Positions 2,060 to 43,441 of a stretch of 64,000 nucleotides of DNA are shown here, in pieces. The notes below the pieces were generated by a model. That model did no database searches. It was given only the letters and a program-made list of their open reading frames with translations, and was not told where the DNA came from. Source of the DNA: Sulfitobacter sp. M05 (GTDB lineage Bacteria > Pseudomonadota > Alphaproteobacteria > Rhodobacterales > Rhodobacteraceae); assembly GCF_029285175.1 (NCBI RefSeq), contig NZ_JABEDH010000001.1, forward strand, positions 1,178,001-1,242,000. Reading direction: 5' to 3'. A program made the position numbers and the translations under genes. The first letter of the stretch is position 1, and each line of letters opens with the position of its first letter.

Positions 2060-2162
2060 CTAGAGCGCCCCACCTTAAACATGAATCGCTTTCGCTGCCT
2101 CTCCCTTTGGTCGAACGCAAAAGCGATATGTGATGGCTCAGGTTAAAGGCGGTACGCTTTAG
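2060..2162 (-). repeat. Copy A of a dispersed 103-104 bp repeat (inverted orientation)
   Basis: Bounded by CTAGAGCG on the left and CGCTTTAG on the right, it contains a strong internal dyad ATCGCTTT (2085-2092) / AAAGCGAT (2120-2127). Its reverse complement aligns with the copies at 32927, 34253 and 43338 with a single one-base gap. Shared blocks are TTAACCTGAG (identical to copy B over the last eight bases), GAGxCATCAC at the same offset as copy C, GAGGCAGCG, and the CGCTCTAG end. No protein is encoded. Its end abuts the MITE-like element that starts at 2160. Confidence 0.7.
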
Positions 2163-2373
2163 GGCCTGTGGACAATCATCCTGCCGCACTGATTTCAGTC
2201 CCAAATTGCTCAGTTCCAGACAAGAAAGCGCAGGACTAACGGGTTAATTCCAGCTTTCTTAACGCAGAACTGGGCAATTTGGGCGAAATCGCTACGCGAC
2301 GCGGTCAATTCGGCTCGCCAGCGGCAAAAGGGGTTTCGCGCCAGTGCGGCAGGATGATTGTCCACAGGCCCTA
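2160..2373. mobile_element. MITE-like element with perfect 32-bp terminal inverted repeats
   Basis: The outer 32 bases at 2160-2191 (TAGGGCCTGTGGACAATCAT and so on) are the exact reverse complement of 2342-2373. The terminal dinucleotide is TA on both sides, consistent with a duplicated TA target included in the repeat. A second, imperfect inverted pair lies inside (2191-2216 with 2267-2290), then a short AGAAAGC/GCTTTCT pair near the centre. The right arm carries 51 extra bases (2291-2341) without a partner. There is no transposase or other credible frame in the 214 bp, so it would be non-autonomous. Ends starting GGGCCTGTGGACAAT recall IS5-type insertion sequences, but this is a recollection. 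Confidence 0.75.
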
Positions 2374-2469
2374 GAATTCCAATAAATTTTGGAACTTTTC
2401 CCACCGGCTGCCTGTTGAATGTCCAAGACCGCAGCAACTGCGGAGCTATTGATACGAAAGGAAGATGAA

Positions 2470-3000
2470 ATGACACGTTCAATTCTCGCGACAACAACAG
2501 CCATTGCAACGCTGGTGACAACCTCTTTCGCCTTTGCTGCCGAAAATGCTGCAAGCGACTTGCAGGGCAATTCTCCAGCAGTCACTGAAGGTGGCAACGC
2601 CAATGTGGTGGGTTCAACGCCAACCTCCGGCGATTTGGCAAGCAAGCGTTTTGGCATTGGCGAATCCGAATATGATCCGACACGTATGGCAATGACGCAA
2701 CAACAGTACGACGCATTGAACGCCGCGATCGGTGCAGAGTTCAAAACCAGTGACGGCAAAGTTCTGGGCATGATCGAAGATGTGACAATCGACGGTCAGG
2801 GCAATCCAAACCTTGAAGTCGATCTGAACGACGACACAAAGATCGACGCCGATAATCTGGTGATCACCCTATTGCCGGACAGCATCGTATTGAAAGAAGG
2901 CAAGATTTTCATCGATACGTCAGAGGACAACCTGTATCTGCAAGCGCAGGACGGCTCGAAAGCGGATGACGAGTCACGCACAACTGTCATCGTGATGTAA
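2470..3000 (+). CDS. Secreted PRC-barrel-like protein
   Basis: A 176-residue protein. The start at 2470 is chosen because GGAAG precedes it by 7-9 nt and because it gives a clean signal peptide ([20 protein letters not shown], cleavage probably after AFA). An in-frame ATG at 2419 would bury that signal. The mature part is acidic. The segment [20 protein letters not shown] has the G-x-x-LG-x-(V/I)-EDV-x-(V/I)-D pattern of PRC-barrel beta domains, followed by repeated beta-strand-like [13 protein letters not shown]. Localisation should be periplasmic, and the function is unknown. The promoter region contains the MITE-like element, which ends about 96 bp before the start. A terminator follows at 3036. 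Confidence 0.8.
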
Positions 3001-3035
3001 GCAGCGCGAAATTTGCCGGCACGTGCAGCTGGCGC

Positions 3036-3067
3036 AGACCGCATCCCGAAAGGGGTGCGGTCTTTTT
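3036..3067 (+). terminator. Intrinsic terminator after the PRC-barrel gene
   Basis: The stem AGACCGCA/TGCGGTCT encloses a CCCGAAAGGG-like top and is followed by a run of T (3061-3067). It lies 36 bp after the stop codon at 3000. Confidence 0.8.
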
Positions 3068-3149
3068 GTATCTGGTTCCGGCTGCCCCCTTCCCCCTTCT
3101 GCACGCTTGCACTAAGAACCGCAGCATCAGCGCCAAGGGGACAAACCGT

Positions 3150-5309
3150 ATGCAAGAACCTGCCATCACCGATGAACTGATCGCCGCTCACGGATTCACC
3201 GCCGACGAATTCGCCGAGGTCAAGAATATCCTTGGCCGCGATCCGAACTATACGGAAATGGGCATCTTTTCAGCGATGTGGAACGAACACTGTTCCTATA
3301 AGTCTTCGAAGAAATGGCTGCGCACCCTGCCCACGGAAGGCCCGCAAGTCATCTGCGGCCCTGGCGAAAACGCCGGCATCGTGGATATTGGTGACGGTCA
3401 GGCGCTGGTCTTCAAAATGGAATCGCATAACCATCCCAGCTATATCGAGCCCTACCAAGGGGCCGCGACCGGGGTCGGCGGCATTTTGCGTGACGTATTT
3501 ACCATGGGCGCGCGCCCCATTGCGGCAATGAACTCGCTCAGCTTTGGCCGCCCCGATCACCCAAAAACCCGCCAGCTGGTGCATGGTGTTGTGGCCGGCG
3601 TTGGCGGCTACGGCAATTGCTTCGGCGTGCCAACCGTTGGTGGCGAAGTGCGGTTTGATACGGCCTATGACGGCAACTGTCTGGTCAATGCTTTCGCAGC
3701 CGGCCTGGCAGACGCGGACAAGATCTTCTACTCGGCAGCTTCTGGTGTTGGGATGCCTGTTGTCTACCTCGGGGCCAAAACGGGCCGCGACGGCGTCGGC
3801 GGTGCAACCATGGCCTCGGCTGAATTCGACGACACAATCGAGGAAAAGCGCCCCACAGTCCAAGTTGGTGACCCCTTCACCGAAAAACGCCTGATGGAAG
3901 CAACGCTGGAACTGATGGCCACCGGTGCCGTAATCTCTATTCAGGATATGGGGGCCGCCGGCCTGACTTGTTCTGCGGTGGAAATGGGCGACAAAGGCGG
4001 GCTCGGCGTGCGTCTGGACCTTGAAAAGGTGCCGACCCGCGAGCTGAACATGACCGCTTATGAAATGATGCTATCAGAGTCTCAGGAACGCATGTTGATG
4101 GTCCTGAAACCCGAACTTGAGGCCGAAGCCAAAGCCGTCTTCGACAAATGGGACCTTGATTTTGCCATCGTTGGCGAAACACTGGCCGAAGACCGCTTCC
4201 TGATCATGCTGAACGGGGAACTCAAGGCGGACCTGCCGCTGAGCAAACTCGCCTCAACCGCCCCGGAATACGACCGCCCCTGGGTCGAAACGCCCGCAGC
4301 CGAACCGCTTGCTGACGTCCCCGGCATTGACCCGATTGACGGGCTTAAGGCGCTGATCTCGGATGTGAATTACGCTGCCAAGAACTGGGTGTTCGAACAA
4401 TATGACACCATGGTGATGGGCGATTCCGCGCGCACGCCCGGCATTGGCGCTGGGATCATCCGGGTGCATGGCACAGAAAAATCCATCGCCTTCACCTCAG
4501 ACGTGACACCACGCTACGTCAAGGCAAACCCGATTGAGGGCGGCAAACAAGCCGTTGCCGAAGCCTATCGCAACTTGACCGCTGTAGGTGCCAAGCCACT
4601 GGCGACAACGGATAACATGAACTTCGGCAACCCCGAAAAACCGCAAATCATGGGCCAGTTCGTCGGTGCAATCAAAGGCATCGGCGAAGCGGTTTCCGCA
4701 TTGGACATGCCCATCGTGTCGGGCAACGTCTCGCTTTATAACGAAACCGATGGTACCGGCATCCTGCCCACCCCGACGATTGGCGCTGTGGGGCTGATCG
4801 AACATCCCGATCACATCATCGGTTGTGACGTGCGCGAGGGCCATGTGGCGCTGGTGCTGGGGGAAACCACAGGCCACCTTGGACAATCTGCCCTGCTGGC
4901 AACCGTCTTTGGCCGCGATGAGGGCGACGCACCTGCGGTCGACCTTGCTTTGGAAAAAGCCCATGGCGATTTCATCCGTGCCAACCGCGAAATGATCAAA
5001 GCCTGTACCGACCTCAGCGATGGCGGCCTTGCACTGGCAGCCTTTGAGCTGGCCGAAACCGCCGACGTCGGCGTCACCCTCGACGCAGCTGATACGCCAA
5101 CCCTGTTCGGCGAAGATCAGGCGCGCTATCTCATCGCCTGCAACTTCGATCAGGCAGAGGCTCTGATGATTGCCGCCACAGCAGCAGGGTTGACCCTGAC
5201 CACCATGGGCAAGTTCGGCGGCAACGATGTCACTATGGGCGGAGTTGGCGCACCTCTTGGCGAACTTTCCGCCCTCTACCGCGGCACGTTCGAAGCAACC
5301 TTTGTCTAA
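3150..5309 (+). CDS. purL: Phosphoribosylformylglycinamidine synthase II
   Basis: 719 residues, the length of the small-type PurL that works with PurS and PurQ in the fourth step of purine synthesis: FGAR plus glutamine-derived ammonia plus ATP give FGAM. The sequence shows the PurL signature [20 protein letters not shown] near the N-terminus, MESHNHPS, the glycine-rich [16 protein letters not shown] nucleotide-binding region, and a second AIRS-like half with [17 protein letters not shown] and [13 protein letters not shown]. The start at 3150 is preferred over an upstream frame opening because AAGGGGA lies about 8 nt before it and the N-terminus [16 protein letters not shown] matches the family. 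It probably has its own promoter after the terminator at 3036. purF and cvpA lie 22 kb away. Confidence 0.97.
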
Positions 5310-5543
5310 ACCACCTGGTTTCGGAGCCGCCCTTGCGTTATACCGGGCGGACGGGGCAGCGGGGTTCTGCCAAGATCAATCGCCGAGGGCCCCGCTTGCG
5401 GGAGACGGCTATTGGTCTTGGCGGGGGCACGATGCTCTGTCAGGCAGGGATGGCGCAAGGGCGGCTTGGAGACCATTTGGTTTTGGTGAGCCCGCAGCGC
5501 CTTTTCTGTCCCCCACAAGCCACAAAGCGCCAAGGTGGGATGC
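5310..5543. other. Intergenic gap with no gene recognised
   Basis: These 234 bp lie between the convergent purL and VWA-protein genes. I found no credible frame, RNA gene or clear terminator. Frames that cross it have atypical composition and no recognisable motif. Confidence 0.6.
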
Positions 5544-6797
5544 TCAAACAGCCGCCATCAGCCGTGCTTTCTCGCCCATATCATCGGTACGCGAAATCAC
5601 CTGCGCCAGTTCCTCAAGCGAGGCAATCGAATGGCCCGCGCGAAAACTGTCCACATGAGGCAACATCGCACGGATACCCGCCGCCTTGGGCGCAAACCCG
5701 TCCCAGCGCAGCAGAGGATTGAGCCAGATCACCCGCCGTGCCGTCAAATGCAGCCGCTGCATCTGGCGTGCCAAATCGTCGGGGGCATCCCGGTCCAGCC
5801 CGTCCGTGATCAGTAAAACAACCGCGCCCTGCCCCATCACACGGCGCGACCAATCGCGGTTGAACGCTTCAATAGAAGCCCCAATCCGCGTGCCGCCCTC
5901 CCAATCCTGCGCCTCTGCCCCTGCCGCCGCGAGTGCCGCATCAACGTCACGTGTCGCCAAATGCCGCGTGATATTCGTGAGCCGGGTGCCAAAGGTAAAA
6001 GCATGGACCTGCGCCCACCCCGCCCCTTTGGCATTGCTGACCGCATGAAGGAAATGCAGGATCACACGGCTGTACTGGCTCATTGATCCGGAGATATCGC
6101 ACAGCACCACAAGGTTGGGATAGCGCGGACGTGGTGTCTTGAACGCCAATTGCTGCATCTCGCCACCACGGCGCAGAGCCGCCCGCAGAGATCGGGCAGC
6201 ATCAATCCGGCCTGTCGGGGCGGCCATCGCCCGCCGCGACGGCAGGGGTTTCACCGGCAGGCTGAGCCGCGCCAACATGCGCTTGGCCTCGGCCATTTCC
6301 GCCAGTGACATCTGTTCAAAATCCAGCGTCCGCAACCGTTCCGTAGATGACATGGTGAAGCTGGCGTCGACCTCGATCAACGCATCCTCCTCTGGTGTTT
6401 CCGCCTCTTCCTCTTTGGGCGGGGCCTCTGCCCCATCCAGCAGCGCCTCGGCTGCGCGTTTTTCAGCCGCCTTGGCGGGGCGATCTTCCTGCACCCCGCG
6501 GATGGCTGGCAGCATCGCAGCCATCATATGCTCAAGATAGCGTGGATCACGCCAATAGAGCCGGAACAGCTGGGCAAAAACAGTGCGGTGCTCGGGGCGG
6601 TTCACAAAACAGGCGTGCAACGTCCAGTAAAAGTCGCGCTTGTCCGAAAACCCCGCCGCCTCGACCGCGCGGATCGCGTCAATAACACGACCCGGCCCGA
6701 TGGGCAGACCCGCGCGGCGCAGGGCGCGGGCAAAATGGGTGATATTACCCGCAAGTTTGGGATCATCCGGCAGGTCGAGGGGTATATGTTCAACCAT
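5544..6797 (-). CDS. CoxE-like VWA domain protein
   Basis: 417 residues. The N-terminal half (about 1-190) is the helical CoxE-type region, with an acidic linker (PPKEEEAETPEED at about 127-139). The VWA fold starts near residue 225 with the metal-site motif DISGSMS at about 234-240, followed by GGTRIGASIEAFN and LLITDGLDRD. The protein probably acts with the MoxR ATPase encoded 60 bp upstream as a AAA+/VWA chaperone pair that inserts metal or activates an enzyme; in carboxydotrophs the related CoxD/CoxE pair matures CO dehydrogenase. No client enzyme lies nearby, so the target is unknown. Its start codon and Shine-Dalgarno region fold into hairpins (see 6791-6824). Confidence 0.88.
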   Translation of the reverse strand: MVEHIPLDLPDDPKLAGNITHFARALRRAGLPIGPGRVIDAIRAVEAAGFSDKRDFYWTLHACFVNRPEHRTVFAQLFRLYWRDPRYLEHMMAAMLPAIRGVQEDRPAKAAEKRAAEALLDGAEAPPKEEEAETPEEDALIEVDASFTMSSTERLRTLDFEQMSLAEMAEAKRMLARLSLPVKPLPSRRAMAAPTGRIDAARSLRAALRRGGEMQQLAFKTPRPRYPNLVVLCDISGSMSQYSRVILHFLHAVSNAKGAGWAQVHAFTFGTRLTNITRHLATRDVDAALAAAGAEAQDWEGGTRIGASIEAFNRDWSRRVMGQGAVVLLITDGLDRDAPDDLARQMQRLHLTARRVIWLNPLLRWDGFAPKAAGIRAMLPHVDSFRAGHSIASLEELAQVISRTDDMGEKARLMAAV

Positions 6798-6824
6798 AAA
6801 TGGTTGATTGGAGGTTCCACCTCC
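6791..6824 (-). promoter_or_regulatory. Paired hairpins covering the ribosome site and start of the VWA gene
   Basis: In the minus-strand transcript GGAGGT-GGA-ACCTCC (6824-6810) is followed at once by CAACCAT-TT-ATGGTTG (6806-6791). The second hairpin contains the ATG start codon in its right arm, and the first contains the only strong Shine-Dalgarno-like sequence close by, so both could be sequestered. Regulation of translation is inferred from the pairing alone. Confidence 0.4.
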
Positions 6825-6857
6825 AAACCTCCGCAGTATTTAAGGCCAAAAAGAGGA

Positions 6858-7766
6858 TCATGCTGGATCGAGGCTTGCTTTGGCCTGATCCAGAATGCGT
6901 TTGGCTTCGGAGCCCTGCAATTTGGCGATGTCATCCTGATACTTGAGGATCGCACCCAGCGTATCCGCGATGACTTCGGGGCTGAGAGTGATCACATCCA
7001 ACGCCAGCAGGCATTTTGCCCAGTCAATAGTTTCAGCTACGCCGGGCTTCTTGAACAAATCCTCTGTTCGCAGTTGCTGCACAAAGGCGACCACCTCGCG
7101 GCTGAGGTTTTCAGCAGCCTCGGGCGCACGGGCCTGCAAAATCTCCATCTCGCGATCAAAATCAGGATAATCCACCCAGTGATACAGGCATCGGCGTTTC
7201 AACGCGTCATGCACTTCGCGGGTGCGGTTCGAGGTCAGGATGACGATCGGTGGATGCGGTGCTGTGATTGTGCCCATTTCGGGGATAGTGACCTGAAAGT
7301 CGCTCAACGCTTCGAGCAGGAAGGCCTCAAACGGGGCATCGGTGCGGTCCAACTCATCAATCAACAGGATCGGCGCGCCGTTTTCATCCGGACGCATCGC
7401 CTCAAGCAGCGGGCGTTCGATCAGATATTTATCGCTAAACAGATCAGCCGTCAGTGCCTCTGTATCTGCACCACCTGCGGCTTCGGCGGCACGGATCGCA
7501 ACCATTTGTGCCGGGAAATTCCATTCATAGACCGCCGAAGAGGCATCAAGCCCTTCGTAACATTGCAAGCGGATCAATTTCCGGTTCAATCCCGCGGCCA
7601 GCGCCTTGGCAATCTCGGTTTTGCCAACCCCTGCCTCGCCCTCCAGAAACAGCGGTCGGCCCAAGCGCAGGCTCAGGAACATCACGGTGCCAAGATCACG
7701 GCCACAGATATACCCCTGATTGCCGAGCATCTCCTGCACCGTATCAATGCTTGTCATTTCAGTCAT
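6858..7766 (-). CDS. MoxR-family AAA+ ATPase
   Basis: 302 residues from the ATG at 7766, chosen because AGGGGG lies about 8 nt upstream; a start 30 nt earlier is possible. Walker A is GEAGVGKTE at about residues 43-51, Walker B is ILLIDELDR, and sensor-1 is IVILTSNRTREV, followed by a C-terminal lid. MoxR ATPases work with a VWA partner in remodelling or metal insertion, and the partner gene follows 60 bp downstream on the same strand. Together they resemble the CoxD/CoxE or NorQ/NorD type of pair. The promoter would lie in the 184-222 bp gap shared with the divergent glycosyltransferase operon. Confidence 0.92.
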   Translation of the reverse strand: MTEMTSIDTVQEMLGNQGYICGRDLGTVMFLSLRLGRPLFLEGEAGVGKTEIAKALAAGLNRKLIRLQCYEGLDASSAVYEWNFPAQMVAIRAAEAAGGADTEALTADLFSDKYLIERPLLEAMRPDENGAPILLIDELDRTDAPFEAFLLEALSDFQVTIPEMGTITAPHPPIVILTSNRTREVHDALKRRCLYHWVDYPDFDREMEILQARAPEAAENLSREVVAFVQQLRTEDLFKKPGVAETIDWAKCLLALDVITLSPEVIADTLGAILKYQDDIAKLQGSEAKRILDQAKASLDPA

Positions 7767-7950
7767 TGCATTCCCCCTGATATGCCAAAGGTGCATCTGC
7801 GCGCGCCGGGGTCAAGTCATCCGATTTGCCTAATTGTCACGCCCTGTGCTGGGACTGCTTCCCAGATTGACGCGATTCGGACAGGCTGGCATAGTCTGGG
7901 AAAAGAAACAGAGGTTCCGGGGCATTGTATTCCCGAACCCGGAGGCGGAC

Positions 7951-7989
7951 ATGGAAACGAGTATCAACTTCCCCCGGATATGCGGGTGA
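7951..7989 (+). CDS. Candidate 12-residue leader peptide (METSINFPRICG)
   Basis: An ATG at 7951 sits 5 nt after GGAGGCGGAC, the strongest ribosome-binding sequence in the region. The frame ends after 12 codons with TGA at 7987-7989, whose last base is the A of the glycosyltransferase ATG (TGATG). The glycosyltransferase itself has little Shine-Dalgarno sequence, so translation of the leader could deliver ribosomes to it. The length, the coupling and the strong site are seen in the sequence; expression is inferred. Confidence 0.4.
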   Translation: METSINFPRICG

Positions 7990-9017
7990 TGGCAGATTTG
8001 CGCATCACAGCTGTCACTTGCGTCAAGAACGAAGGGCCTTTCCTGCTGGAATGGATCGCCTTTAACCGTTGTATTGGCGTAACGGATTTCTTGTTCTATT
8101 CAAATGATTGCACGGATGCGACCGACCTGCTGCTGGACCAGTTGGAAAGCCACGGTCTGCTGGCGCATTTGCCAAACCCCGCAACCAACCGCAATTACCA
8201 GATGCAAGCCTTGAAAGCCGCGCGCCGCCATCCTTTGGTGAAACAAGCCGATTGGGTTTGGATTGCCGACGTTGACGAGTTCCTGAACATTCATACAGGG
8301 GATCACACCATTCCAGACCTGATTGACGCCTGCAACAATCCACAGGCAATTTCAGTTACCTTTCAGTTCATGGCCAACAATGGGGTTGAGAGCTATGTGG
8401 ACGAACCCGTCATTACACAATTCCTGAACAGCCATAACCCCGACATTTGGGGCGCGGATACGGCAATCGAGGTGAAATCACTGGTACGGCGCGATTTTCC
8501 AACCGAGTATTTTGGTGCCCACCGGCCCTTCCACGATGATGAAAAAGCGAAACCGGCATGGACCGACGGATCAGGCCGGCAGGTGCCGCCACCGTTCCGC
8601 AAGGCCGCAGGCAAGCGGCGCATTCGCGCCTTTCCGGCCCGTGACGCCCGTCACCACGCCACCCTGAACCACTATGCCCTGCGCTCGCTTGATAGTTATC
8701 TGGTCAAGAATGACCGCGGGGACGTGAACCGCGAACACCGTGCTTTCGACGACAGCTATTGGCGCGAACGCAATGATCCGGGCTATTTCGACAACAGCAT
8801 TCTGCGCTATGAAACCGCTCTGCGGGCAGAAATGGCACGGCTGATGGCGCTGGAGGGCGTGGCAGATTTGCACGCCCGGGCCGTGGCCCTGCACCGCGAG
8901 AAACGCGACAGCCTGCTGGCGCAGGAAAGCTATCAGCAGATGCGCGAACAGCTGCGCAATGCATCCCACCTCAGCGATGCTGAAGCTTCTATTCTCAAGG
9001 AGCTGACAGGCGCGTGA
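7989..9017 (+). CDS. Glycosyltransferase family 2-type protein (Glyco_tranf_2_4)
   Basis: 342 residues. The N-terminus has the family opening ITAVTCVKNEGPFLLEWIAF, then FYSNDCTDATDLLLDQL, and the metal/nucleotide-binding motif DVDEF at about residues 94-98 followed by HTGDHT. The end carries the NHYALRSLDSYLVKN segment shared with the other two members of this operon. Such proteins transfer sugars in the cytoplasm onto polysaccharide or lipid carriers. The start at 7989 is preferred because it is coupled by TGATG to the leader at 7951; an ATG at 7980 is the alternative. A much longer upstream extension of the same frame is antisense to the MoxR and VWA genes and is not coding. The stop overlaps the next gene by 4 bp (GTGA). 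Confidence 0.87.
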   Translation: MADLRITAVTCVKNEGPFLLEWIAFNRCIGVTDFLFYSNDCTDATDLLLDQLESHGLLAHLPNPATNRNYQMQALKAARRHPLVKQADWVWIADVDEFLNIHTGDHTIPDLIDACNNPQAISVTFQFMANNGVESYVDEPVITQFLNSHNPDIWGADTAIEVKSLVRRDFPTEYFGAHRPFHDDEKAKPAWTDGSGRQVPPPFRKAAGKRRIRAFPARDARHHATLNHYALRSLDSYLVKNDRGDVNREHRAFDDSYWRERNDPGYFDNSILRYETALRAEMARLMALEGVADLHARAVALHREKRDSLLAQESYQQMREQLRNASHLSDAEASILKELTGA

Positions 9018-12029: not shown

Positions 12030-12030
12030 C

Positions 12031-30013: not shown

Positions 30014-30186
30014 TCTGTTGTCGCCAAGCCGGCGCTTGCCGCGCACTGCCCCCTCACCTATTCAAGACCAAAGCGTTTCGATTTTGATCCCGTTGCCCGC
30101 ACGTTCCCCCATTCCACGGGATTGAGCATTCGGCGCGACATGGGCTTTTCTGGAAAATGCAGAACGCTATGGAAAAGGGCTTGGAC

Positions 30187-31693: not shown

Positions 31694-32920
31694 ATGCGCC
31701 CTTCCCATATGCGCCGTAAGGTTCGGTTGAGCCTGCTGGCCACCGCCAGCGCCACCCTTCTGACGGCCTGCGGTGATCAACCGCTCGACTTTGATCTGCG
31801 CGGCATCGGCGGCGGCTTTTCAACCGCAAGTGCCGCAACTGGCCCGCTGGCCAACCGCCCCCGGCCCGATGACCGTGGGGTGATCTCATACCCCAACTAC
31901 CAGGTCGCCGTGGCCCGTCGCGGTGACACCCTGGCAGACGTGGCAAACCGGGTAAACGTAGACCCCGAGGCATTGGCGCGCTTTAACGGTATCAATGTCG
32001 ACGACGCCCTGCGCAAAGACGAAATCATCGCCCTGCCCGGTCGCGTGGCAGAACCATCCCCCGCCACCGGTGCCGCTGCAAGTGGTCCGATCCAGCCTGT
32101 GGACATTAGCTCTCTTGCAGGCGGTGCCATCGACCGCGCGCCCGCAACACCCGGTGTGCAAACCGCCGCTCTGCCCCCCGTACCGTCCCCCGCGCCTGTG
32201 CAGACAGGACAGGAACCGGTGCGCCACAAGGTAGAGCGTGGGGAAACCGCCTATACGGTTGCACGCCTCTATAATGTGCCGGTCAAAGCCCTGTCAGAAT
32301 GGAACGGTCTGGGGGCGGATTTCGCCGTGCGCGCGGGCCAGTATCTGTTGATCCCTGTGGCCAAGCAGAACCCACCGGCCCGCAAAGCAACACCAGCCGA
32401 GAGCGCTGCGGCGACAACCACAGCACCGGGCATCGGCACCCCCACTCCAACACCGCCCTCGGCGACCAAACCCCTGCCGCAGGATGAAGCCGCGAAACCG
32501 GCACCGGCAGCGACCAAGGCTCCCTCCAAACCCGTGGCAGATGTCGGCAAGACAACCAAACCGGCCAAGGCAACCAAGATGACCACCCCGGTCACCGGCA
32601 GCATCATTCGCGGCTATGCCAAGGGCCGCAACGAAGGCATCAACATCAAAGCGGCTGACGGCTCGCCCGTAAAAGCCGCTGACAGCGGCACAGTGGCGGC
32701 GATAACCAAAAGCGCCGAAGGGGTTCCGATTGTCGTCGTGCGCCATACCGGAAACCTGTTAACCGTCTATGCCAATGTGACCGATGTGACGGTTTCCAAA
32801 GGGGACAGCGTGGGCCGTGGCCAACAGATTGCAAAGCTGCGCAACGGTGATGATGCCTATGTGCATTTCGAGGTGCGCAAAGGCTTTGACAGTGTGGACC
32901 CTGCGCCCTTCCTGAACTGA
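31694..32920 (+). CDS. LysM and M23-type envelope lipoprotein (NlpD-like)
   Basis: 408 residues. A lipobox LLTAC near residue 26 follows a charged start (MRPSHMRRKVRLSLLATASA). There are two LysM modules: ISYPNYQVAVARRGDTLADV at about 62-105 and KVERGETAYTVARLYNVPVK at about 178-222. A Pro/Ala-rich linker follows, then a C-terminal M23 (LytM) domain with IIRGYAKGRNEGINIKAADG, GNLLTVYANVTDVTVSKGD and AYVHFEVRKGFDSVDPAPFL. The zinc-binding His-x-His of active M23 enzymes appears altered (YVHFEVRK has one His and the first HxxxD His reads NEGIN). That points to an activator of amidases, like NlpD, rather than an active peptidase. Confidence 0.88.
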   Translation: MRPSHMRRKVRLSLLATASATLLTACGDQPLDFDLRGIGGGFSTASAATGPLANRPRPDDRGVISYPNYQVAVARRGDTLADVANRVNVDPEALARFNGINVDDALRKDEIIALPGRVAEPSPATGAAASGPIQPVDISSLAGGAIDRAPATPGVQTAALPPVPSPAPVQTGQEPVRHKVERGETAYTVARLYNVPVKALSEWNGLGADFAVRAGQYLLIPVAKQNPPARKATPAESAAATTTAPGIGTPTPTPPSATKPLPQDEAAKPAPAATKAPSKPVADVGKTTKPAKATKMTTPVTGSIIRGYAKGRNEGINIKAADGSPVKAADSGTVAAITKSAEGVPIVVVRHTGNLLTVYANVTDVTVSKGDSVGRGQQIAKLRNGDDAYVHFEVRKGFDSVDPAPFLN

Positions 32921-32926: not shown

Positions 32927-33030
32927 CCAAAGCTTTTCACGCTCAACCTGAGATACCACGCCCCTATTCGCGTTCAGTCAGAAAGAGAGGCCGCGAGCAG
33001 GGGATTCAAGTTTTACGCGAAACGCTACAA
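32927..33030 (+). repeat. Copy B of the dispersed 104-bp repeat
   Basis: Starts CCAAAGC six bases after the stop of the LysM/M23 gene. It aligns at the same offset with copy A over AACCTGAG (bases 19-26), then GCGTTC, GAGAGGCCGCG and GATTCAAG. It matches copy C over CACGCC (bases 31-36) and GTTTTACxCGAAACGCT (bases 48-64 of the second part). The terminal CTAG of the other copies is lost (CTACAA). Confidence 0.6.
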
Positions 33031-33317: not shown

Positions 33318-34256
33318 ATGCCAACCTATAATGGCATCGGCTATCGCTGGACCGGATATAACATCCCCTCCACCCCTGAACTGACAATTACCATCACCGA
33401 TGATGATGCGCAGATGGATTGGTTTGGCTCGGGCGATTCCAACCAACTTGTCACCACATCAGATGGCAATCACACCAACGCAGTCGTAAACGGCGGTTCC
33501 ATCCTCAATGTGCGGATGGATACGGATAACGATGGCGTAGAGGACGTTGTCGAACCTGTTGCCTTTTTTCAGGTAGCCGGCCAATGGTACTGGCTCCCTA
33601 CGCCGGGGTCCTCCTTTGAAACAGGGGATACCCTGTTGGGCAACGCCGGTGGTTGGGTGGATAGCGGCACCGGTTGGGATTACGAGGATATCACCTGCTT
33701 TGGAGCTGATACCCTAATTGATACCCCCCAAGGCCCGCGTCGGATTGAAGATCTGTCCGAGGGTGATCTGGTCAACACCGACAACGGTGGCGTACAGGCC
33801 ATCGAATGGATTGGAAAAAGCACCGTGAAAGCCGATGGTGACCTTGCCCCGATCATCATCAGCAAAGGTACATTTAACAACGATCGTGACATCGCAGTCT
33901 CTCCGAACCACGCAATCCTTGTCGAAGACTGGCGGGCGGAATTACTGTTGGGAACCGATGCAGCCTTTATTCGGGCCAAAGACCTGCTAAACGGTGATAC
34001 AATCTACCGGATGCCACAGCCGGAGTTCACCTATTGCCATCTGCTTTTGGACGGCCATTTTGTCTTGCAAACCAGCGGCATGTTGAGCGAAAGTTTCTAT
34101 CCCGGTCCCGCCGCGATGCAGGCCCTCTCGCTGGCCTCAAAAAACGAAATTTTCCGGCGGTTTCCCGCACTCTGTATGGATACAGACAGCTTTGGCCCGC
34201 AGGCATTTGTTGTTGCAAAATCTTATGAAGCCGCCTGTCTTCCGACCTATGCCTAG
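33318..34256 (+). CDS. Hint (Hedgehog/intein)-domain protein 1
   Basis: 312 residues with GGGAG 7 nt before ATG. Residues 1 to about 125 form a non-conserved, probably beta-rich domain with acidic DMDTDNDGVEDVVE-like segments. The Hint_2-type domain follows: the nucleophile Cys C127 in ITCFGADTLIDTPQGPRRIE, then LSEGDLVNTDNGGVQAIEWI, and the TxxH-like motif VSPNHAILVEDWRAELLLG with H198. No extein-like continuation follows the domain, and no signal peptide is visible. Hint-domain proteins of this build are abundant in roseobacters and may be exported by other routes, but their function is unknown. The stop codon TAG lies inside repeat copy C. Confidence 0.82.
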   Translation: MPTYNGIGYRWTGYNIPSTPELTITITDDDAQMDWFGSGDSNQLVTTSDGNHTNAVVNGGSILNVRMDTDNDGVEDVVEPVAFFQVAGQWYWLPTPGSSFETGDTLLGNAGGWVDSGTGWDYEDITCFGADTLIDTPQGPRRIEDLSEGDLVNTDNGGVQAIEWIGKSTVKADGDLAPIIISKGTFNNDRDIAVSPNHAILVEDWRAELLLGTDAAFIRAKDLLNGDTIYRMPQPEFTYCHLLLDGHFVLQTSGMLSESFYPGPAAMQALSLASKNEIFRRFPALCMDTDSFGPQAFVVAKSYEAACLPTYA

Positions 34257-34356
34257 AGTTTTTCGAGATTAAATCGAGACATCACGCCGCCCTTTTCGAA
34301 TTCAAACATGGCGGGAGGCAGCGCACGAAGGGGCCGTTTTACTCGAAACGCTCTAG
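34253..34356 (+). repeat. Copy C of the dispersed 104-bp repeat, overlapping two stop codons
   Basis: Bounded by CTAG at both ends with 15-bp terminal inverted repeats: CTAGAGTTTTTCGAG at 34253-34267 and CTCGAAACGCTCTAG at 34342-34356 (13 of 15 paired). Bases 25-35 (AGACATCACGC) are identical to copy D at the same offset. The left CTAG provides the TAG stop of the Hint gene (34254-34256), and the right CTAG provides the TAG stop of the DUF815 gene on the other strand (34353-34355). Confidence 0.75.
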
Positions 34357-36099: not shown

Positions 36100-36102
36100 G
36101 TG

Positions 36103-36561: not shown

Positions 36562-36564
36562 GGA

Positions 36565-36967: not shown

Positions 36968-37009
36968 CATCCCCTAGATGGGTCTCACACATGACCAAAG
37001 GAGTTTCTC

Positions 37010-37333: not shown

Positions 37334-37334
37334 C

Positions 37335-38000
37335 ATGCGCCGCACTGATCGTCTTTTTGACATCATCCAGATCCTGCGCGACGGTAAACTTTACCGCGCG
37401 CAGGACATTGCCGAACGGCTAGAGGTATCCACACGCACCATCTACCGCGATATGGACACGCTCAGCGCATCGGGGGTGCCCATCGAGGGCGAGCGCGGAG
37501 TGGGCTATATGATTACCCAAGCGATCAGCTTGCCGCCCCTGACCTTGACCGCCTCCGAGCTTGAGGCGCTGAACCTTGGGCTGGCAATTGTCGGCCAAGC
37601 CGCTGATGATGCATTAAAAACCGCGTCGGAAACACTGGCAGACAAGATCGACGCCGTACTGCCCGCCCAGACCATTGCCGAAGCAGAAGCGTGGAAATTC
37701 GCGGTTTACCCCTTTGCCGATCCGACGCGCAACCTCACGCATATGCCGCTGCTGCGCTCTGCGGTCAAAGCCCGCCAAAAAGTGCGCCTGACCTACACCT
37801 CGCGCGAAAATGCTGTGACCAGCCGTGTGATCCGGCCACTGCATATGGAGTATTGGGGCCGCGTCTGGACCCTGACCTCGTGGTGTGAATTGCGCGAGGG
37901 TTTTCGCGTCTTCCGCCTTGATCTGATCGAAAGCGCCGAGGCCCTGCCCGACCTGTTTGTCGATGAGCCGGGCAAGACGCTGGCGGATTACGTGCCTTAG
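37335..38000 (+). CDS. YafY-type WYL-domain transcriptional regulator
   Basis: 221 residues. The N-terminal winged helix MRRTDRLFDIIQILRDGKLY includes the recognition region LEVSTRTIYRDMDTLSASG. The C-terminal WYL domain reads VKARQKVRLTYTSRE and VIRPLHMEYWGRVWTLTSWC. WYL domains sense small ligands. The gene follows its neighbour by one base. Its stop overlaps by three bases the stop of the convergent Lin0512 gene at 37997. Confidence 0.92.
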   Translation: MRRTDRLFDIIQILRDGKLYRAQDIAERLEVSTRTIYRDMDTLSASGVPIEGERGVGYMITQAISLPPLTLTASELEALNLGLAIVGQAADDALKTASETLADKIDAVLPAQTIAEAEAWKFAVYPFADPTRNLTHMPLLRSAVKARQKVRLTYTSRENAVTSRVIRPLHMEYWGRVWTLTSWCELREGFRVFRLDLIESAEALPDLFVDEPGKTLADYVP

Positions 38001-38365
38001 GGTTTCAGCTTCCAGCCGGATTGCGGTGGCAAAAACGCCTCTACGCTCGCCTGTGCAACCACGATCGTTTCGCCCCCTGCTGGCACGTTCAACCCGCCAT
38101 GAACCGCGCGTACCTCGGCCTTGCCGCGTGGCAGCTTTGCCGTCAGCGCCACCAAGTCCAGCTTGTCCGGCTCTTGAACACCGATTGTCACCTGCACCCG
38201 CATCTCTTCATGCGACAAGTCCGTTACCGCGAAAAGCGGCAAAGATGAGTGACGCAGCGCGTCTTCAATCGCGCGGCTCGCTGCTTTGGTGTAATCCATC
38301 CCGTGCAGGTCATTGCCCATGCCCATCTCTATGATGACGCGGTGCATCGTTGTCAGATCACCCAT
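37997..38365 (-). CDS. Lin0512-family protein, second of a tandem pair
   Basis: 122 residues. ATG 38365 is preferred (GGAG 7 nt upstream, 8-bp overlap with the preceding gene); ATG 38347 is the alternative. The family features are VIIEMGMGNDLHGMDYTKAA near the N-terminus and VQVTIGVQEPDKLDLVALTA followed by VHGGLNVPAGGE. It is clearly paralogous to the product of the next gene upstream. The family has no firm function. Pairing suggests a hetero-oligomer. The operon continues upstream to an ABC ATPase and a symporter. Confidence 0.8.
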   Translation of the reverse strand: MGDLTTMHRVIIEMGMGNDLHGMDYTKAASRAIEDALRHSSLPLFAVTDLSHEEMRVQVTIGVQEPDKLDLVALTAKLPRGKAEVRAVHGGLNVPAGGETIVVAQASVEAFLPPQSGWKLKP

Positions 38366-38720
38366 CTGCCCGCTCCATATCAAACCCAACGGACAGCGCG
38401 ACATTGGCCATCACGGTGGGATGCCCGCCCCCCTCTTGCCCCACAGGTCGCGGCACATCCAGACCGCCTTGCGATACATTCACCGTCACATTGCCATAGG
38501 GAAACACCGCTTTCAGCACCTCGACATCCACGCGGTCCGGCTGCTGTACGCCAACGTCCAGCGTGATCTGCATCGCGGTTTTGTCAAATCCAAAGAGTTC
38601 CGCCAGATTGATCGAGTTGTGCCACAGCGCATCGCGCACCGCCCGCTCTGCCGCTTGGGTATAGTCCCCCCGCCGCAGCGACGATCCCATTCCAAACTCA
38701 ACAAGCAACGTGTCAGCCAT
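38358..38720 (-). CDS. Lin0512-family protein, first of a tandem pair
   Basis: 120 residues from ATG 38720 (GTG 38723 in frame). LLVEFGMGSSLRRGDYTQAA and LDVGVQQPDRVDVEVLKAVF, then VSQGGLDVPRPVG, align with the downstream paralogue throughout, with the shared pattern E-x-GMG-x-x-L-x-x-x-DYTxAAxRAxxDAL. It begins 9 bp after the ABC ATPase stop. Function unknown. Confidence 0.8.
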   Translation of the reverse strand: MADTLLVEFGMGSSLRRGDYTQAAERAVRDALWHNSINLAELFGFDKTAMQITLDVGVQQPDRVDVEVLKAVFPYGNVTVNVSQGGLDVPRPVGQEGGGHPTVMANVALSVGFDMERADG

Positions 38721-38729
38721 CACAAAATC

Positions 38730-39839
38730 CTATTCATCAAACGGAAATACAAAACACCGGTCGCGCGGGATCGTCAGCCACATCACCGCACCGGGTTGCG
38801 GCAAAAATACATTCGGCACCGTCGCCCGCAGGGTAGATCCGTCATGGTCCAATACAAATTCAACCAGACTTTCCGACCCCATAAACCGCGCCCGCGAGAC
38901 CACAGCCCGTGCCGGCATCCCCTCTTTTGCTGTGGGGTTTGGCCCCTTGCCCGCACGGTCAAAATCGATCCGCACATGTTGCGGGCGAAACACGATCTGC
39001 ACCCGCGTACCATCCGCCACACCGGGGGCCAGAAACCGCCCGAAGGCTGTTTGCGCAAGCGCTCCCTCGACGGTCGCCTCGATCACATTTGCATCCGAGA
39101 AAAACGCAACCGCCGCGCGGTCCAAAGGCCGAGTGTAAACATTGTAAGGGGCACCCTGCTGCACAATCTTGCCGTCGCGCATCAATGCGATTTCATCCGC
39201 CATTCGCATGGCCTCGTCCGGTTCATGGGTGACCAGCAGAACGGCGGTATCTTCTTCTTTGAGGATACTAAGGGTTTCGTCGCGGATGCCGTCGCGCAGG
39301 CGGTTGTCCAACCCCGAAAACGGTTCATCCATCAACATGATACGTGGCTTGGGGGCCAATGCCCGTGCCAGCGCAACGCGTTGTTGTTCGCCCCCTGACA
39401 ACTGGTGCGGATAGCCGTCGATAAAGCGCAACAGATCAACCCGCGCCAGCAGTTCTTCTACCCGGACGCGTTTCTCTGCCTTTGATCCCTTCAGGCCAAA
39501 GGCCACATTATCCGCCACCGACAGATGCGGAAACAGGGCAAAGTCCTGAAACATCAAGCCAATTTCGCGCCGCTCGGGCGGGATGCGAAACACCGTGTCA
39601 CAGATCAGCTTGCCATCCACATGGATTGTCCCACTGTCCTGCATTTCGACACCGGCAATCATCCGCAAGGTCGTGGATTTACCGCACCCCGAAGGCCCCA
39701 GCAGGCAGGTTACCTGACCCGGCATAATTTGCAGTGACACACCATCAACAACCGGACGGTCCGCAAAGGAACGACGCAGGTCCTTGATTTCAAGGCGCGG
39801 AACTACCGGTTGGTCCGGCGTAGAGGCAACAAGGGTCAT
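38730..39839 (-). CDS. ABC transporter ATP-binding protein (FbpC/PotA-like)
   Basis: 369 residues. Walker A is LLGPSGCGKSTTLRMIAG, Q-loop MFQDFALFPH, signature LSGGEQQRVALARAL, Walker B RIMLMDEPFSGLD and the switch His in VLLVTHEPDEAMRMA. The C-terminal TOBE-like domain (IVFRPQHVRIDFD, ARFMGSESLVEFVL) places it with importers for iron(III), spermidine or sulfate. No permease or binding-protein gene is nearby. Instead it sits between a sodium:solute symporter gene and the Lin0512 pair, so either it serves a transporter encoded elsewhere or this is an unusual association. Confidence 0.92.
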   Translation of the reverse strand: MTLVASTPDQPVVPRLEIKDLRRSFADRPVVDGVSLQIMPGQVTCLLGPSGCGKSTTLRMIAGVEMQDSGTIHVDGKLICDTVFRIPPERREIGLMFQDFALFPHLSVADNVAFGLKGSKAEKRVRVEELLARVDLLRFIDGYPHQLSGGEQQRVALARALAPKPRIMLMDEPFSGLDNRLRDGIRDETLSILKEEDTAVLLVTHEPDEAMRMADEIALMRDGKIVQQGAPYNVYTRPLDRAAVAFFSDANVIEATVEGALAQTAFGRFLAPGVADGTRVQIVFRPQHVRIDFDRAGKGPNPTAKEGMPARAVVSRARFMGSESLVEFVLDHDGSTLRATVPNVFLPQPGAVMWLTIPRDRCFVFPFDE

Positions 39840-39873
39840 AGATATCCGATGGAATTACTCGGAAAAACTGCTA

Positions 39874-41232
39874 TCAGCCCCGCCGCACCGCCGCAAGCAC
39901 TCCGGCAAAGCCGACCAGCAGAACAGCCAGACAAATCACCAACAGCTGTTCGTATTTGTGCCCCTCGGGCAGGACAGCGGCCACCATCGCCCAGCTGCGC
40001 CCGAAATAGGCAATAGCGCCTACTACCGCCGCACCAAAGGCAACAAGGTATCCCCATAGCGCCACGTCGCGGCCCATCACCAGCCCGACAACCAAGACCG
40101 GCGTCAGGAACATCGACGCAGTACCACTGACCGCGACCGCATCAAACAGCGAGGCATTGCCCCAAAGCGTCAATCCCGTGCCCGCCACCATAAAACCCAG
40201 CATCACAAGACGCCCGCCCGCCAGCGTGCGCGGCGCAAGGCGCAGCTCTTCGACCACCAAACGTGCAGCAGAAGCCAAGGCCGAATCCAGTGTGCTCAGG
40301 GCGGACACCAACAGGGAAATCATCAGGGCAACAAAGACCCAAGGCGGGAACATCACGGCCCATGTGCCGATCAACTGTCCCTCGTAGGCCGCCCCGGTCA
40401 GGCTGGCCTGGATACCAAAGAAGCCAAAGCCGATGATACACAGCGTGGAAATCCAGAACGCATGTAGAAACGAGGCCTTGGTGGTCGCCTCATCGGCGAT
40501 AAATCCACGGTCCATCATCACCGGATCATGGGCGGGATAAGAGAACACCTGCAACGCAGCCACCGCCAGCAACACCCATCCGTTATAGGCCCCCGATGCC
40601 CCCGGTGCCGTCACCACCGCGCCCAAATCAAATCCGGGGCTGGCGATCAACGCAATAAAGGCCACACCAAAAACCGCCAGAAACACCGACATCTGCACAA
40701 CATCCGTGCGCAAGGCCGCCGACAGCCCGCCCCAAGCGGAATAGGCCAGCCCCAAAACAGCAACGATCATGATGGCCGTGGCACCACTGCCGGCGAGTAC
40801 TGCGTTAAAGATCAACCCAACAACCAGTAGATTGGCAAACACTTCGGACAAAAGCCGCAGCGCAATCACCAGATTGTAACAGAGGTTCCCTGCCGCACCA
40901 AAATGGGCACCAAGCCAATCTTGCATCGACCGCGCCCCTTTCGCCCGAAGCCGCGCCACGATGAAACCGCCGGTCAGGAAGGACCCGTAATAGGCCGCAT
41001 AGGCCAGTGTCCCTGCGATTCCGTAGTAATATCCCAGAATGGCAGCGTTCATCAGGGAACGTGCAAAAATCCACGTGGTGACCTGTGATAGAACCAACAC
41101 CCAAAGCCCTGGTGCCCGCCCTTCAGCACTAAGCCCGCCAAAAAACCCGTCGATTGACGCGCGTTTAGGCGCAGCCAGAAGACTGGCAACCAGAATGGCC
41201 GCTAACAGTGAAATCAGAACAGTGGTTTGCAT
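39874..41232 (-). CDS. Sodium:solute symporter family protein
   Basis: 452 residues with about 12-13 hydrophobic segments and the SSS family features SQVTTWIFARSLMNAAILGY near residue 50, ARSMQDWLGAHFGAAGNL, YSAWGGLSAALRTDVVQMSV near 165 and SALSTLDSALASAARLVVEE near 320. The solute is unknown. It is the first gene of the symporter-ATPase-Lin0512-Lin0512 unit (34 bp gap to the ATPase). Confidence 0.9.
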   Translation of the reverse strand: MQTTVLISLLAAILVASLLAAPKRASIDGFFGGLSAEGRAPGLWVLVLSQVTTWIFARSLMNAAILGYYYGIAGTLAYAAYYGSFLTGGFIVARLRAKGARSMQDWLGAHFGAAGNLCYNLVIALRLLSEVFANLLVVGLIFNAVLAGSGATAIMIVAVLGLAYSAWGGLSAALRTDVVQMSVFLAVFGVAFIALIASPGFDLGAVVTAPGASGAYNGWVLLAVAALQVFSYPAHDPVMMDRGFIADEATTKASFLHAFWISTLCIIGFGFFGIQASLTGAAYEGQLIGTWAVMFPPWVFVALMISLLVSALSTLDSALASAARLVVEELRLAPRTLAGGRLVMLGFMVAGTGLTLWGNASLFDAVAVSGTASMFLTPVLVVGLVMGRDVALWGYLVAFGAAVVGAIAYFGRSWAMVAAVLPEGHKYEQLLVICLAVLLVGFAGVLAAVRRG

Positions 41233-41330
41233 CGGGCGGCCCTTTAACTGGTGGTGATTAGCGCAGGATTAGCTGCCAATGCCACAAACGACCACCGGTG
41301 ATCCCCTTTTGTCCCGCAAATGTGATCGGC

Positions 41331-42452
41331 CTATGCGGTCAGCTGGAAACCGGCACGGGCCAGATCCTGGCCATTGACCTGCACAACCACCTCATGCTGC
41401 CCGGGATACAGGGTGAAAGTTGTCGCGTCCCCTTTGAGGAAATGGTTTTTCGACAGGCTGAGCGTTTTGCCTTGCTTGATCTCTGACACCTTGAGTTTGA
41501 ACACTTTCTCCGCCGTCTTGCCGCCTGCACGGGCAAAGATGATGCGGTAATCTACCATCACCGGCAGGGTCTGATCCGCCGACAATTCACAGGCTATCGC
41601 CAGCCGGTCCCCGATGGCATAGCTCTCTGCCCCCAAGGTCAGCTTGGCCTGTACAGGCACATCACCGCGATAGCCTAGCAACTCCAAAGCGCCGGAATGC
41701 CCCTGTTTTACCAAGACCCGCAGGGCATGGCGCGTCATCCACGCCAGTTCCTTGGCATCCTGACGCCCCGCGCGCTGCCAGTCCTGCAACAACCCGATCA
41801 CCAGATCTGGCTCTTGCTTTGCAATATCGTTCAGATGGTTCGCCACCGACCGCGTGACATAACGGGTCTTGTCCGCATGGAGCTGTGTCAGGAACGGCAC
41901 CCGCTGCGCAGTTTCCAGCGTGACCGACTTGGCCCATGGCAGACGCGGGCGCGTGCCCTCGCTAACCAACCGGCGCACATGGTAGTTATCGTCCTGCGCC
42001 CAAAGCGCCAGACGGGCCAGCGTTTCGTCCGGCCAGCGGTTCAGGAAGGGCCGGATATAAAACTCCATCGAAAAACGCTTTGTCGCCTCATAAAGCAGGT
42101 CAAGCGCCCGTTCGCGGTGGTTTTCAAGCCCATGGCGCACGGCCAGAATACCGGGCACGGCGTGGATGAAATGGCCGAAATCATCGTCGCGCAAGGATGG
42201 ATCAAGCGGCGCAGGCAGTGCTGCTTCCAACTGGCTTGCCATGGTCGGGAAATCCGCCGCCAACTGCGCCTCTGCGCAATCGGCCATCCATTCCAGCCGC
42301 TCCATCAATTCGCGCTCGGCAAAACCTGACAGGGCCTTGGCCTGAAAACCGGAAGCATCAAAAGAAGGCACGCCGGCGGCAAACTCCGCCGCCAGCTGCG
42401 CAATAGTCTGCGGATTGAACAGGTGATCCTTGAGCGAGAATTTTTCAGCCAT
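41331..42452 (-). CDS. DNA alkylation repair protein (AlkC/AlkD-like HEAT repeats)
   Basis: 373 residues from ATG 42452; the frame is open upstream over the SDR gene without similarity. Helical repeat character runs through about residues 80-260, including LLYEATKRFSMEFYIRPFLN and ARLALWAQDDNYHVRRLVSE (HEAT-like), then THLNDIAKQEP-like VANHLNDIAKQEPDLVIGLL. The last 100 residues are a beta-sandwich-like extension (YAIGDRLAIACELSADQTLP, HEVVVQVNGQDLARAGFQL). AlkC-type enzymes excise 3-methyladenine. It follows the SDR gene by 5 bp, probably one transcript. Confidence 0.85.
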   Translation of the reverse strand: MAEKFSLKDHLFNPQTIAQLAAEFAAGVPSFDASGFQAKALSGFAERELMERLEWMADCAEAQLAADFPTMASQLEAALPAPLDPSLRDDDFGHFIHAVPGILAVRHGLENHRERALDLLYEATKRFSMEFYIRPFLNRWPDETLARLALWAQDDNYHVRRLVSEGTRPRLPWAKSVTLETAQRVPFLTQLHADKTRYVTRSVANHLNDIAKQEPDLVIGLLQDWQRAGRQDAKELAWMTRHALRVLVKQGHSGALELLGYRGDVPVQAKLTLGAESYAIGDRLAIACELSADQTLPVMVDYRIIFARAGGKTAEKVFKLKVSEIKQGKTLSLSKNHFLKGDATTFTLYPGQHEVVVQVNGQDLARAGFQLTA

Positions 42453-42457
42453 ATCAA

Positions 42458-43237
42458 TTACATCGTCAGGTTGGTTGCGCCACCATCCAGCAGCAAATTC
42501 TGGCCCACGATGAACCCGGCATGGGTGGAACACAAAAACGCACAAGCTGCGCCGAATTCCTGACGGGTGCCATAACGACCGGCTGGAATGGTTGCGGCCC
42601 TTTCACTGCGCGCATCCTCAAGCGAAATGTTACGCGATTTCACCACCGCCCCGTCCAGCGCATCAGCGCGATCTGTGGCGTGGATGCCGGGCAACAGGTT
42701 GTTGATTGTCACGCCTGATCCCGCCACTTGCCGTGATGTGCCTGCGACATAGCCGGTCAGACCGGTGCGGGCCGAATTGCTAAGGCCCAGAACACCAATC
42801 GGCGCGCGCACGGATTGCGAGGTAATGTTGACCACCCGGCCCCAGCCACGCTCCATCATGCCGGGCACCAGTGCTTTGATCAGGGAAATCGGGGCCAGCA
42901 TATTGGCATCCAGCGCCTTGATGAAATCCTCGCGGTCCCAGTCGGACCACATACCGGGAGGTGGGCCGCCCGCGTTGTTGACCAGAATATCCACGTCACC
43001 TGCCGCCGCGATCACAGCCGCCTGCCCTTCGGCGGTGGCGACATCTGCGGCCACAGTGGTGACTGAAACGCCATAGCTGCTGCGCAACCGTTCGGCTGCA
43101 GCCTCAAGCGCGTCACTGCCGCGGGCATTCATCACCAGATCGACACCCGCCTCCGCCAATGCTTCGGCACAGCCCAGCCCCAACCCTTTGGATGACGCAC
43201 AAACCAGTGCTGTTTTCCCTTTGATTCCCAAATCCAT
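42458..43237 (-). CDS. Short-chain dehydrogenase/reductase
   Basis: 259 residues from ATG 43237 (GGGGAA upstream). TGxxxGxG motif reads CASSKGLGLGCAEALAEAG, NNAG is present in DILVNNAGGPPPGMW, and the active-site Ser is in VVNITSQSVRAP. The Tyr-x-x-x-Lys position reads SNSARTGLTGYVAGTSRQ, so the usual Tyr and Lys are not where expected and the protein may be catalytically altered, as in some SDRs annotated 3-oxoacyl reductases. It ends FIVGQNLLLDGGATNLTM. First gene of a pair with the alkylation repair gene. Confidence 0.88.
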   Translation of the reverse strand: MDLGIKGKTALVCASSKGLGLGCAEALAEAGVDLVMNARGSDALEAAAERLRSSYGVSVTTVAADVATAEGQAAVIAAAGDVDILVNNAGGPPPGMWSDWDREDFIKALDANMLAPISLIKALVPGMMERGWGRVVNITSQSVRAPIGVLGLSNSARTGLTGYVAGTSRQVAGSGVTINNLLPGIHATDRADALDGAVVKSRNISLEDARSERAATIPAGRYGTRQEFGAACAFLCSTHAGFIVGQNLLLDGGATNLTM

Positions 43238-43337
43238 GGCGCGATTCCCCTGTTTCTGTTTCCCCAGACCTATCACGCCAACCGTCAACCGCCAGCAAAA
43301 CACCGCAGCCTTGACCCAGCCCCGACACAATCCTGGC

Positions 43338-43441
43338 CTAAACCTCCCTGAGTTTAACCCTAGACATCACGCACCTCCCATTTCCTCAATCAGAGCGAGA
43401 AGTGGCGATCAATCTTACAATTTTTACCCGAATTGCGATAG
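43338..43441 (+). repeat. Copy D of the dispersed 104-bp repeat
   Basis: Runs from CTA to TAG over exactly 104 bp and ends 33 bp before the second Hint gene. AGACATCACGC at 43362-43372 lies at the same offset (bases 25-35) as in copy C, and TTTTACCCGAATTGCGATAG at the right end aligns ungapped with the TTTTACTCGAAACGCTCTAG of copy C. The middle is more diverged. Confidence 0.6.

Follow-up and report, generated by a model that had tools for sequence, protein, structure and literature searches.

Short dispersed repeats of Sulfitobacter sp. M05 share their unequal ends with IS630-family insertion sequences and very probably derive from them

Results

The repeat family and its size

The 64,000 nucleotides of the Sulfitobacter sp. 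M05 genome analysed here (contig NZ_JABEDH010000001.1, positions 1,178,001 to 1,242,000; in the following the window) contain several copies of a largely intergenic repeat of about 104 bp (Table 1). We consider these repeats, with little doubt, to be non-autonomous miniature inverted-repeat transposable elements (MITEs) that would belong to a Rhodobacterales subgroup of the IS630 (Tc1/mariner) family and be mobilised in trans. The assignment is based on their exact ends, on the empty sites of a relative, which fit a TA duplication at YTAR sites, and on the presence of the same unequal ends on IS630-family insertion sequences (ISs). An initial annotation of the window had reported four copies that align from end to end, which the alignment bore out, and had offered a MITE, a repetitive extragenic palindromic (REP)-like unit or a structured RNA as explanations. 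Only the first of these is retained for the dispersed copies.

A covariance model built from the four window copies, R1, gave 117 matches at E ≤ 1 in the 4.07-Mb genome, both strands counted. Its 8-bp structure was poor and it was therefore replaced. Ninety R1 places were taken with their flanks, the weaker remainder being left, and a second model, R2, was built from 76 copies with window copy 4 excluded. R2 returned 110 matches, which at E ≤ 0.001 represent 103 distinct places, since seven were the opposite strand of the same place; the family thus withstood the genome-wide profile search that could have disposed of it. A length of 99 to 110 bp, mostly 103 to 107 bp, was found in 81 of the 90 places, and 79 of those 81 formed one cluster. 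The 76 copies fall into subfamilies A (n = 26, mean identity 0.69), B (n = 29, 0.85) and C (n = 21, 0.85), five loci having been left out before this assignment (L017, which is window copy 4, L076, L078, L091 and L100). The repeats are short, carry no gene and have exact termini with inverted repeats, as MITEs do. Two loci, L092 and L096, are internal-deletion derivatives of 46 and 55 bp with both ends kept, and in L096 a matched change is seen by eye on both arms.

The motif GAGNCATCACG had 11 matches in the genome, against none for the reversed control, and by eye seven of the 11 hold the whole element or part of it. An ungapped repeat finder reported at least 60 direct-repeat families, and the present one was not in the top 20 by size; such simple repeat finding misses it because the copies are only moderately alike.

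Ends and insertion sites

The boundaries of the element are sharp. In the 79 full-length copies, information content is 0.44 to 1.56 bits in the 16 columns at either terminus, compared with 0.01 bit for the first outside base on the left, 0.14 bit on the right and at most 0.19 bit in any outside column. The left end reads Y-TA (C in 55/79, T in 21/79) and the right end TA-R (G in 46/79, A in 26/79), and no duplication longer than TA was seen at the ends of these 79 copies. Ends from Rhodobacterales have a terminal TAAAGCG...TTTAACCTGA box.

Filled sites could be compared with empty ones in G008, the genome most similar in DNA across the window region, in which R2 found no match at E ≤ 0.001. 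Thirteen of the 90 loci had hits in nine G008 stretches. Ten junctions were inspected and four were clean: L037, L017 (window copy 4), L047 and L045. In all four, a YTAR sequence in G008 corresponds to C-TA[element]TA-R in strain M05, and the outer Y and R match in 4/4. These pairs agree with the target duplication that the initial annotation had raised, in the form of a duplicated TA. A 4-bp duplication was also considered, but TA duplication is preferred: at L045, L047 and L017 the empty site agrees with the outer Y and R, and the bases inside them are different. For window copies 1, 2 and 3 no clean empty site was obtainable in G008 because the flanks have diverged. Head-to-tail copies in two further genomes of the genus, G007 and G053, share exactly 4 bp. 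For the high-copy genomes G007, G043 and G053, the R2 matches listed include none in the intervals bounded by the aligned segments that surround copies 2 and 3.

IS630-family insertion sequences with the same unequal ends

In Paracoccus sp. PAMC 22219 an element of 1053 bp (L236) has the ends of the repeat together with transposase reading frames, whose proteins match DDE_3 above the cut-off and helix-turn-helix (HTH) families below it. Among 295 family genomes, 55 hold relatives of its transposase segment. A search for inverted pairs flanked by TA, which was not seeded by the repeat, detected such ends at 13 of 30 IS loci, compared with a pair at one locus in plain shuffles of the same 30; it detected none at the remaining 17. 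The matching ISs are about 1.06 kb long, and 25 of 26 IS ends start with TA[AGT]AG. Within the genus, four of 12 IS loci have such ends (L341, L345, L347 and the less similar L346); L341 carries CCCGCC at both ends, and L345 and L347 carry TTTCTA. The stems are lineage-specific and common to both ends: the IS ends differ by lineage, largely together (CCCGCC, TTTCGAG, TTTCGG and others), and the same holds for subfamilies A and B.

The consensus sequences of A, B and C share one fold: about 20 pairs, interrupted by single mismatches, make up the outer stem, followed by a bulge of about 10 nt confined to the left side, an inner stem and a loop. The two arms were compared with the two ends of ten ISs (nine of the 13 and L236, four more diverged ones being excluded), with the identity of each end set by eye. 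Out of 29, the left arm scored on average 23.2 against one IS end and 18.0 against the other for A, 22.3 and 18.5 for B and 20.9 and 18.3 for C. The right arm fits the opposite IS end better (20.3 versus 17.6 for A, 20.3 versus 17.5 for B, 16.8 versus 14.5 for C). Since each arm fits a different IS end, the bulge on one side is probably due to a parent IS whose ends were unequal.

Position at gene ends

Gene context was taken from a codon-score open reading frame (ORF) caller rather than from annotation; by this caller 94% of the window is coding. Among the 87 copies with a gene on both sides, 54 lie between convergent, 28 between tandem and five between divergent genes; of the other copies one overlaps an ORF and two are flanked by a gene on a single side. 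The 54/87 convergent placements compare with an expectation of 20%, derived from 29 of 147 YTAR sites in 180 kb of G008. Of the 135 gene ends that face a copy, 47, distributed over 44 of the 90 copies, have a stop codon that lies exactly in the terminal TAR of the element. With the two one-sided copies excluded and target preference unweighted, this amounts to 44/88, compared with 25% (51/201) of non-coding YTAR sites holding a stop codon (p = 6e-7). At L037 and L045 the end of the protein is identical in G008, and at L045 TAA has become TAG. That most copies sit between convergent genes or in stop codons is probably explained by such insertions costing least. The stop-codon enrichment may be the result of selection and not of targeting. 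Stop-codon insertion suggests how a bacterial transposon can reach about 100 copies cheaply in a densely coding genome.

Distribution and related classes

Further copies were found in other genomes, with a patchy distribution. R2 matched 29 of 58 genus genomes at E ≤ 0.001; four genomes gave at least 67 matches, one 41, one 10 and the others 0 to 3. In the class sample, where the search was strictly filtered and scored 13 candidates in each genome, three of 289 genomes matched at E ≤ 1e-4, all of them Rhodobacteraceae. An exact 33-base scan of genome contigs found nothing. A degenerate 22-base scan of named genomes found at least 117 stretches; R2 was applied to 80 of these (L173-L252) and matched in 66 (132 matches, both strands counted). 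Two scan rows, from Neopusillimonas and Staphylococcus, lack the element and appear to have been hit by chance. A Verrucomicrobia metagenome-assembled genome with two copies is perhaps mis-binned.

Six stretches from Pelagivirga, Roseovarius and Celeribacter (L192, L193, L194, L223, L227 and L252) form a class of 116 to 118 bp with the same ends. By eye, each end of this class is able to form its own hairpin, whereas in subfamilies A to C the ends pair together. By hand count, all three consensus sequences carry a GANTC sequence, the site of CcrM, in their right end, and 12 of the 13 ISs have one at position 23, always of the same end. GANTC is retained in 38 of 76 copies (A 9/26, B 14/29, C 15/21), no better than other columns.

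These features recall the CcrM-associated intergenic repeats CIR1-4 of Caulobacter and Brucella (Chen and Shapiro 2003, via PMC2229807), which passages of that review describe as about 110 bp long, with GANTC, TA termini and two-arm folds. Our repeats could then be CIR elements already known, an identity compatible with their being MITEs. Size, termini, the GANTC of the consensus sequences and an alphaproteobacterial host are alike, and the 116-118-bp class, which by eye may take the two-arm form, is a possible bridge between them. The comparison is one of descriptions, taken from passages of the review. R2 found nothing outside the Rhodobacteraceae in the filtered 289-genome sample, and only half of the copies keep GANTC. 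We therefore regard the identity as doubtful.

Copies in plasmid conjugation operons

A BLAST search of plasmids with the B consensus returned 25 records, of which 17 were examined. In 11 of these the copy occupies the gap that separates virB8 from a virB5/6-like gene in a conjugation operon (Table 1); others lie near virB4 (L325, L337, L339 and L340) or elsewhere (L327 and L338). R2 was applied to five of the 17 and matched each of them, with 49 to 66 bits. Across the 11 virB plasmids mean identity is 0.890 in the gap holding the element, 0.883 and 0.885 in the whole flanks and about 0.710 at virB8 third positions. The inner stem of this copy is almost invariant and the bulge is variable. The copy in the virB operon thus looks possibly domesticated; its hairpin perhaps tunes the mRNA of the conjugation operon, which makes it a candidate for a MITE turned regulatory RNA in conjugation.

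Fold and decay of the copies

A pairing signal is present throughout the family. The covariation score over the whole set was 0.288 compared with 0.161 in shuffled data, and 81% of the pairing cells were filled compared with 34-46% when the alignment was slid. Double-change pairs exceeded the shuffles only modestly (26 versus 21.5, with 15 of 500 shuffles reaching 26), and the covariation is mainly between subfamilies. Window copies 1 to 3 fold better than shuffled sequence, whichever strand is taken (z -2.3 to -4.9), and copy 4 barely does (z -1.8 and -0.9 on its two strands). Changes within subfamilies differ. In B, 127 single changes break pairs and four double changes keep them, where 6.3 are expected. 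In A there are 157 pair-breaking changes and 24 compensated ones (15.1 expected), and in C 54 and 13 (5.4 expected); sub-lineages within A and C may account for their surplus of compensated changes. On these counts most copies decay after insertion, which is plainest in B, and the fold is best understood as belonging to the mobile form.

The signals of pairing, the compensated changes in A and C, the location past stop codons between convergent genes and the strong conservation of the virB copy would also be expected of a functional structured RNA or terminator family selected at each site. This explanation is highly improbable for the dispersed copies: the pairs of subfamily B break without excess compensation, G008 has no match at all, the window copies are without an Rfam match at gathering score (SorX being the sole match in the window), and there is no intrinsic-terminator-like site at copies 2 to 4.

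Three loci, L146 (G007), L147 (G053) and L148 (G043), by eye combine a B-type outer stem with a C-type inner stem. With such recombination in relatives, the element looks modular.

Search for a mobiliser

Several observations weigh against an origin from IS630. Searches with PF13358 and with the transposase segment found no such IS630-type transposase in the M05 genome. M05, G011 and G053 had no match to the IS transposase segment, G043 had one fragment and G007 two diverged matches, so that none of the five high-copy genus genomes has a good IS630-type transposase. Seven genomes of the genus have IS matches that reach about 65% identity or more, and these hold 0 to 2 repeats; no genome in the genus sample combines good IS copies with many repeats. 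Some single insertion sites are compatible with a 4-bp duplication or with insertion free of duplication, and a paired fold over the full length exceeds what an IS630 end needs. Finally, a Y1_Tnp match is present in four of five high-copy and 14 of 53 other genus genomes (p = 0.03); the match of G053 is below the cut-off, and over the cut-off the counts are 3/5 and 12/53 (p = 0.10). With no such transposase found in M05 and no co-occurrence in the genus sample, the mobiliser is inferred from the ends and not seen at work.

Taken alone, the Y1 association would favour REP- or REPIN-like palindromes moved as single-stranded DNA by a Y1 (RAYT) transposase with the hairpin as recognition element, as would the hairpin conserved in three subfamilies, with its covariation between them, and the hairpin possible at each end of the 116-118-bp class in Roseovarius and Celeribacter. 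Such an origin is hardly credible, since a Y1 transposase (PF01797) was not found in the M05 genome, which has some 103 copies, the Y1 gene of G043 is itself broken by a copy (L161:390-495, an IS200/RAYT-type gene), no copy lies within the roughly 3 kb examined at the Y1 loci of the other three (G007, G011 and G053), the target is a palindromic YTAR with TA on both sides, and the ends match IS630.

The general DDE_3 family has three matches in G007 and one in G053. These four loci were rejected as mobilisers: two have other ends, and at the other two no inverted pair was found.

Copies in the window

Table 1 Copies of the repeat in the window and in plasmid virB operons
Feature	Position or locus	Strand	Length	Subfamily	R2 score	Remarks
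Copy 1	2060..2162	-	103 bp	B	106.4 bits	Y-TA...TA-R ends
Copy 2	32927..33030	+	104 bp	A	75.3 bits	
Copy 3	34253..34356	+	104 bp	A	68.0 bits	
Copy 4	43338..43441	+		unassigned	15.9 bits, E 0.094	diverged
Copy 5	30068..30171	+			12.5 bits	strongly diverged
virB5/6-virB8 copies	L324, L326, L328-L336					plasmids of nine genera

Copy 2 begins 6 bp past the stop codon of the ORF at 31694-32920. At its syntenic place in G008 the element is absent, the junction not being clean. Copy 3 exactly fills the gap between two convergent ORFs and touches both, its terminal CTAGs providing both stop codons (34254-34256 on the plus and 34353-34355 on the minus strand). The view that all copies are intergenic holds in general and needs this qualification for copy 3. 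The weak copy 4 has independent support from the empty CTAG site at its position in G008. Copy 5, which had been put forward only as a possible copy, is real: its R2 score is likewise weak, and independent support comes from G008, which lacks about 103 bp precisely there.

Two further features lie near copy 1. The SorX small RNA (Rfam RF02784, 53.1 bits) is at 1788-1871, about 190 bp away, and an unrelated 214-bp element with perfect inverted ends of 32 bp (TAGGGCCTGTGGACA...) adjoins the copy at 2160-2373. The latter has two further genome copies, at C9:61468-61737 and C7:932574-932843.

Discussion

In the mechanism we propose, an IS630-type transposase acting in trans would recognise both ends of the repeat. 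The sequences recognised would be TA-RAGCGTnnCGnn, TTTAACYTGA and, nearer the interior, a subterminal box that is not the same at the two ends. The enzyme would move a core of about 102 bp into the TA of a YTAR site and thereby duplicate the TA. The long hairpin would be constrained during mobility, and after insertion copies would mostly decay. Where the target is a TAR stop codon, this would be rebuilt from TA and the first base of the element, A or G.

A more comprehensive scheme can be offered tentatively, as one that we hold rather less likely than its opposite. Y-TAR would be both target and stop, and ends starting with A or G would rebuild the stop and leave the protein unchanged, allowing high copy numbers at convergent gene ends. 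Some copies, such as the virB hairpin, would have been domesticated. The mobiliser would have been gained and then lost, giving bursts in genomes without a resident transposase, and CIR may be of the same nature.

An IS630 origin would name the likely source of a common class of Rhodobacterales intergenic repeats and would account for their fixed length and unequal ends. It would also give CIR repeats, for which the review passages of 2007 leave mobility open and know no mobiliser (PMC2229807), an origin that can be tested.

Among the systems closest to the repeats are the IS630-family ISs of the Rhodobacterales (L236, L341 and L345), with the same terminal repeats, the same inequality between the ends and GANTC at position 23; they differ in being about 1.06 kb long with transposase reading frames, whereas the repeats are gene-free. 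The repeats Bru-RS1 and Bru-RS2 of Brucella are those of Halling and Bricker (1994, cited in PMC2267715). They are palindromic and 103 and 105 bp long. By description only, these resemble our family in palindromic structure, size and alphaproteobacterial host; R2 found nothing outside the Rhodobacteraceae in the filtered 289-genome sample. MITEPye1 of Paracoccus yeei is, according to passages of PMC11578231, likewise a non-autonomous Rhodobacterales MITE with a long stem-loop, but has IS1182-family ends and one to three chromosomal copies.

As a mode of action, the nearest parallel is the pneumococcal RUP, for which mobilisation by IS630-Spn1 has been proposed in the passages of PMC2229807 and PMC3049150. 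As described there, RUP is 107 bp long and present in 108-110 copies, has IS630-like ends that pair in the fold and a TA target and, as other repeats are, is enriched between convergent genes (PMC3049150). It belongs to Streptococcus and has nine contiguous terminal inverted repeat pairs, compared with the outer stem of about 20 pairs here; the likeness drawn is one of mode of action. Those passages on RUP make no mention of stop-codon regeneration; for BOX repeats, 36 genes are stated to take their stop codon from the repeat (PMC3049150). Our literature search found no listing or abstract naming the present repeat family. The repeats are of a known kind, that of IS630-derived MITEs with a RUP-like mode of action, and the family is probably a new member of it.

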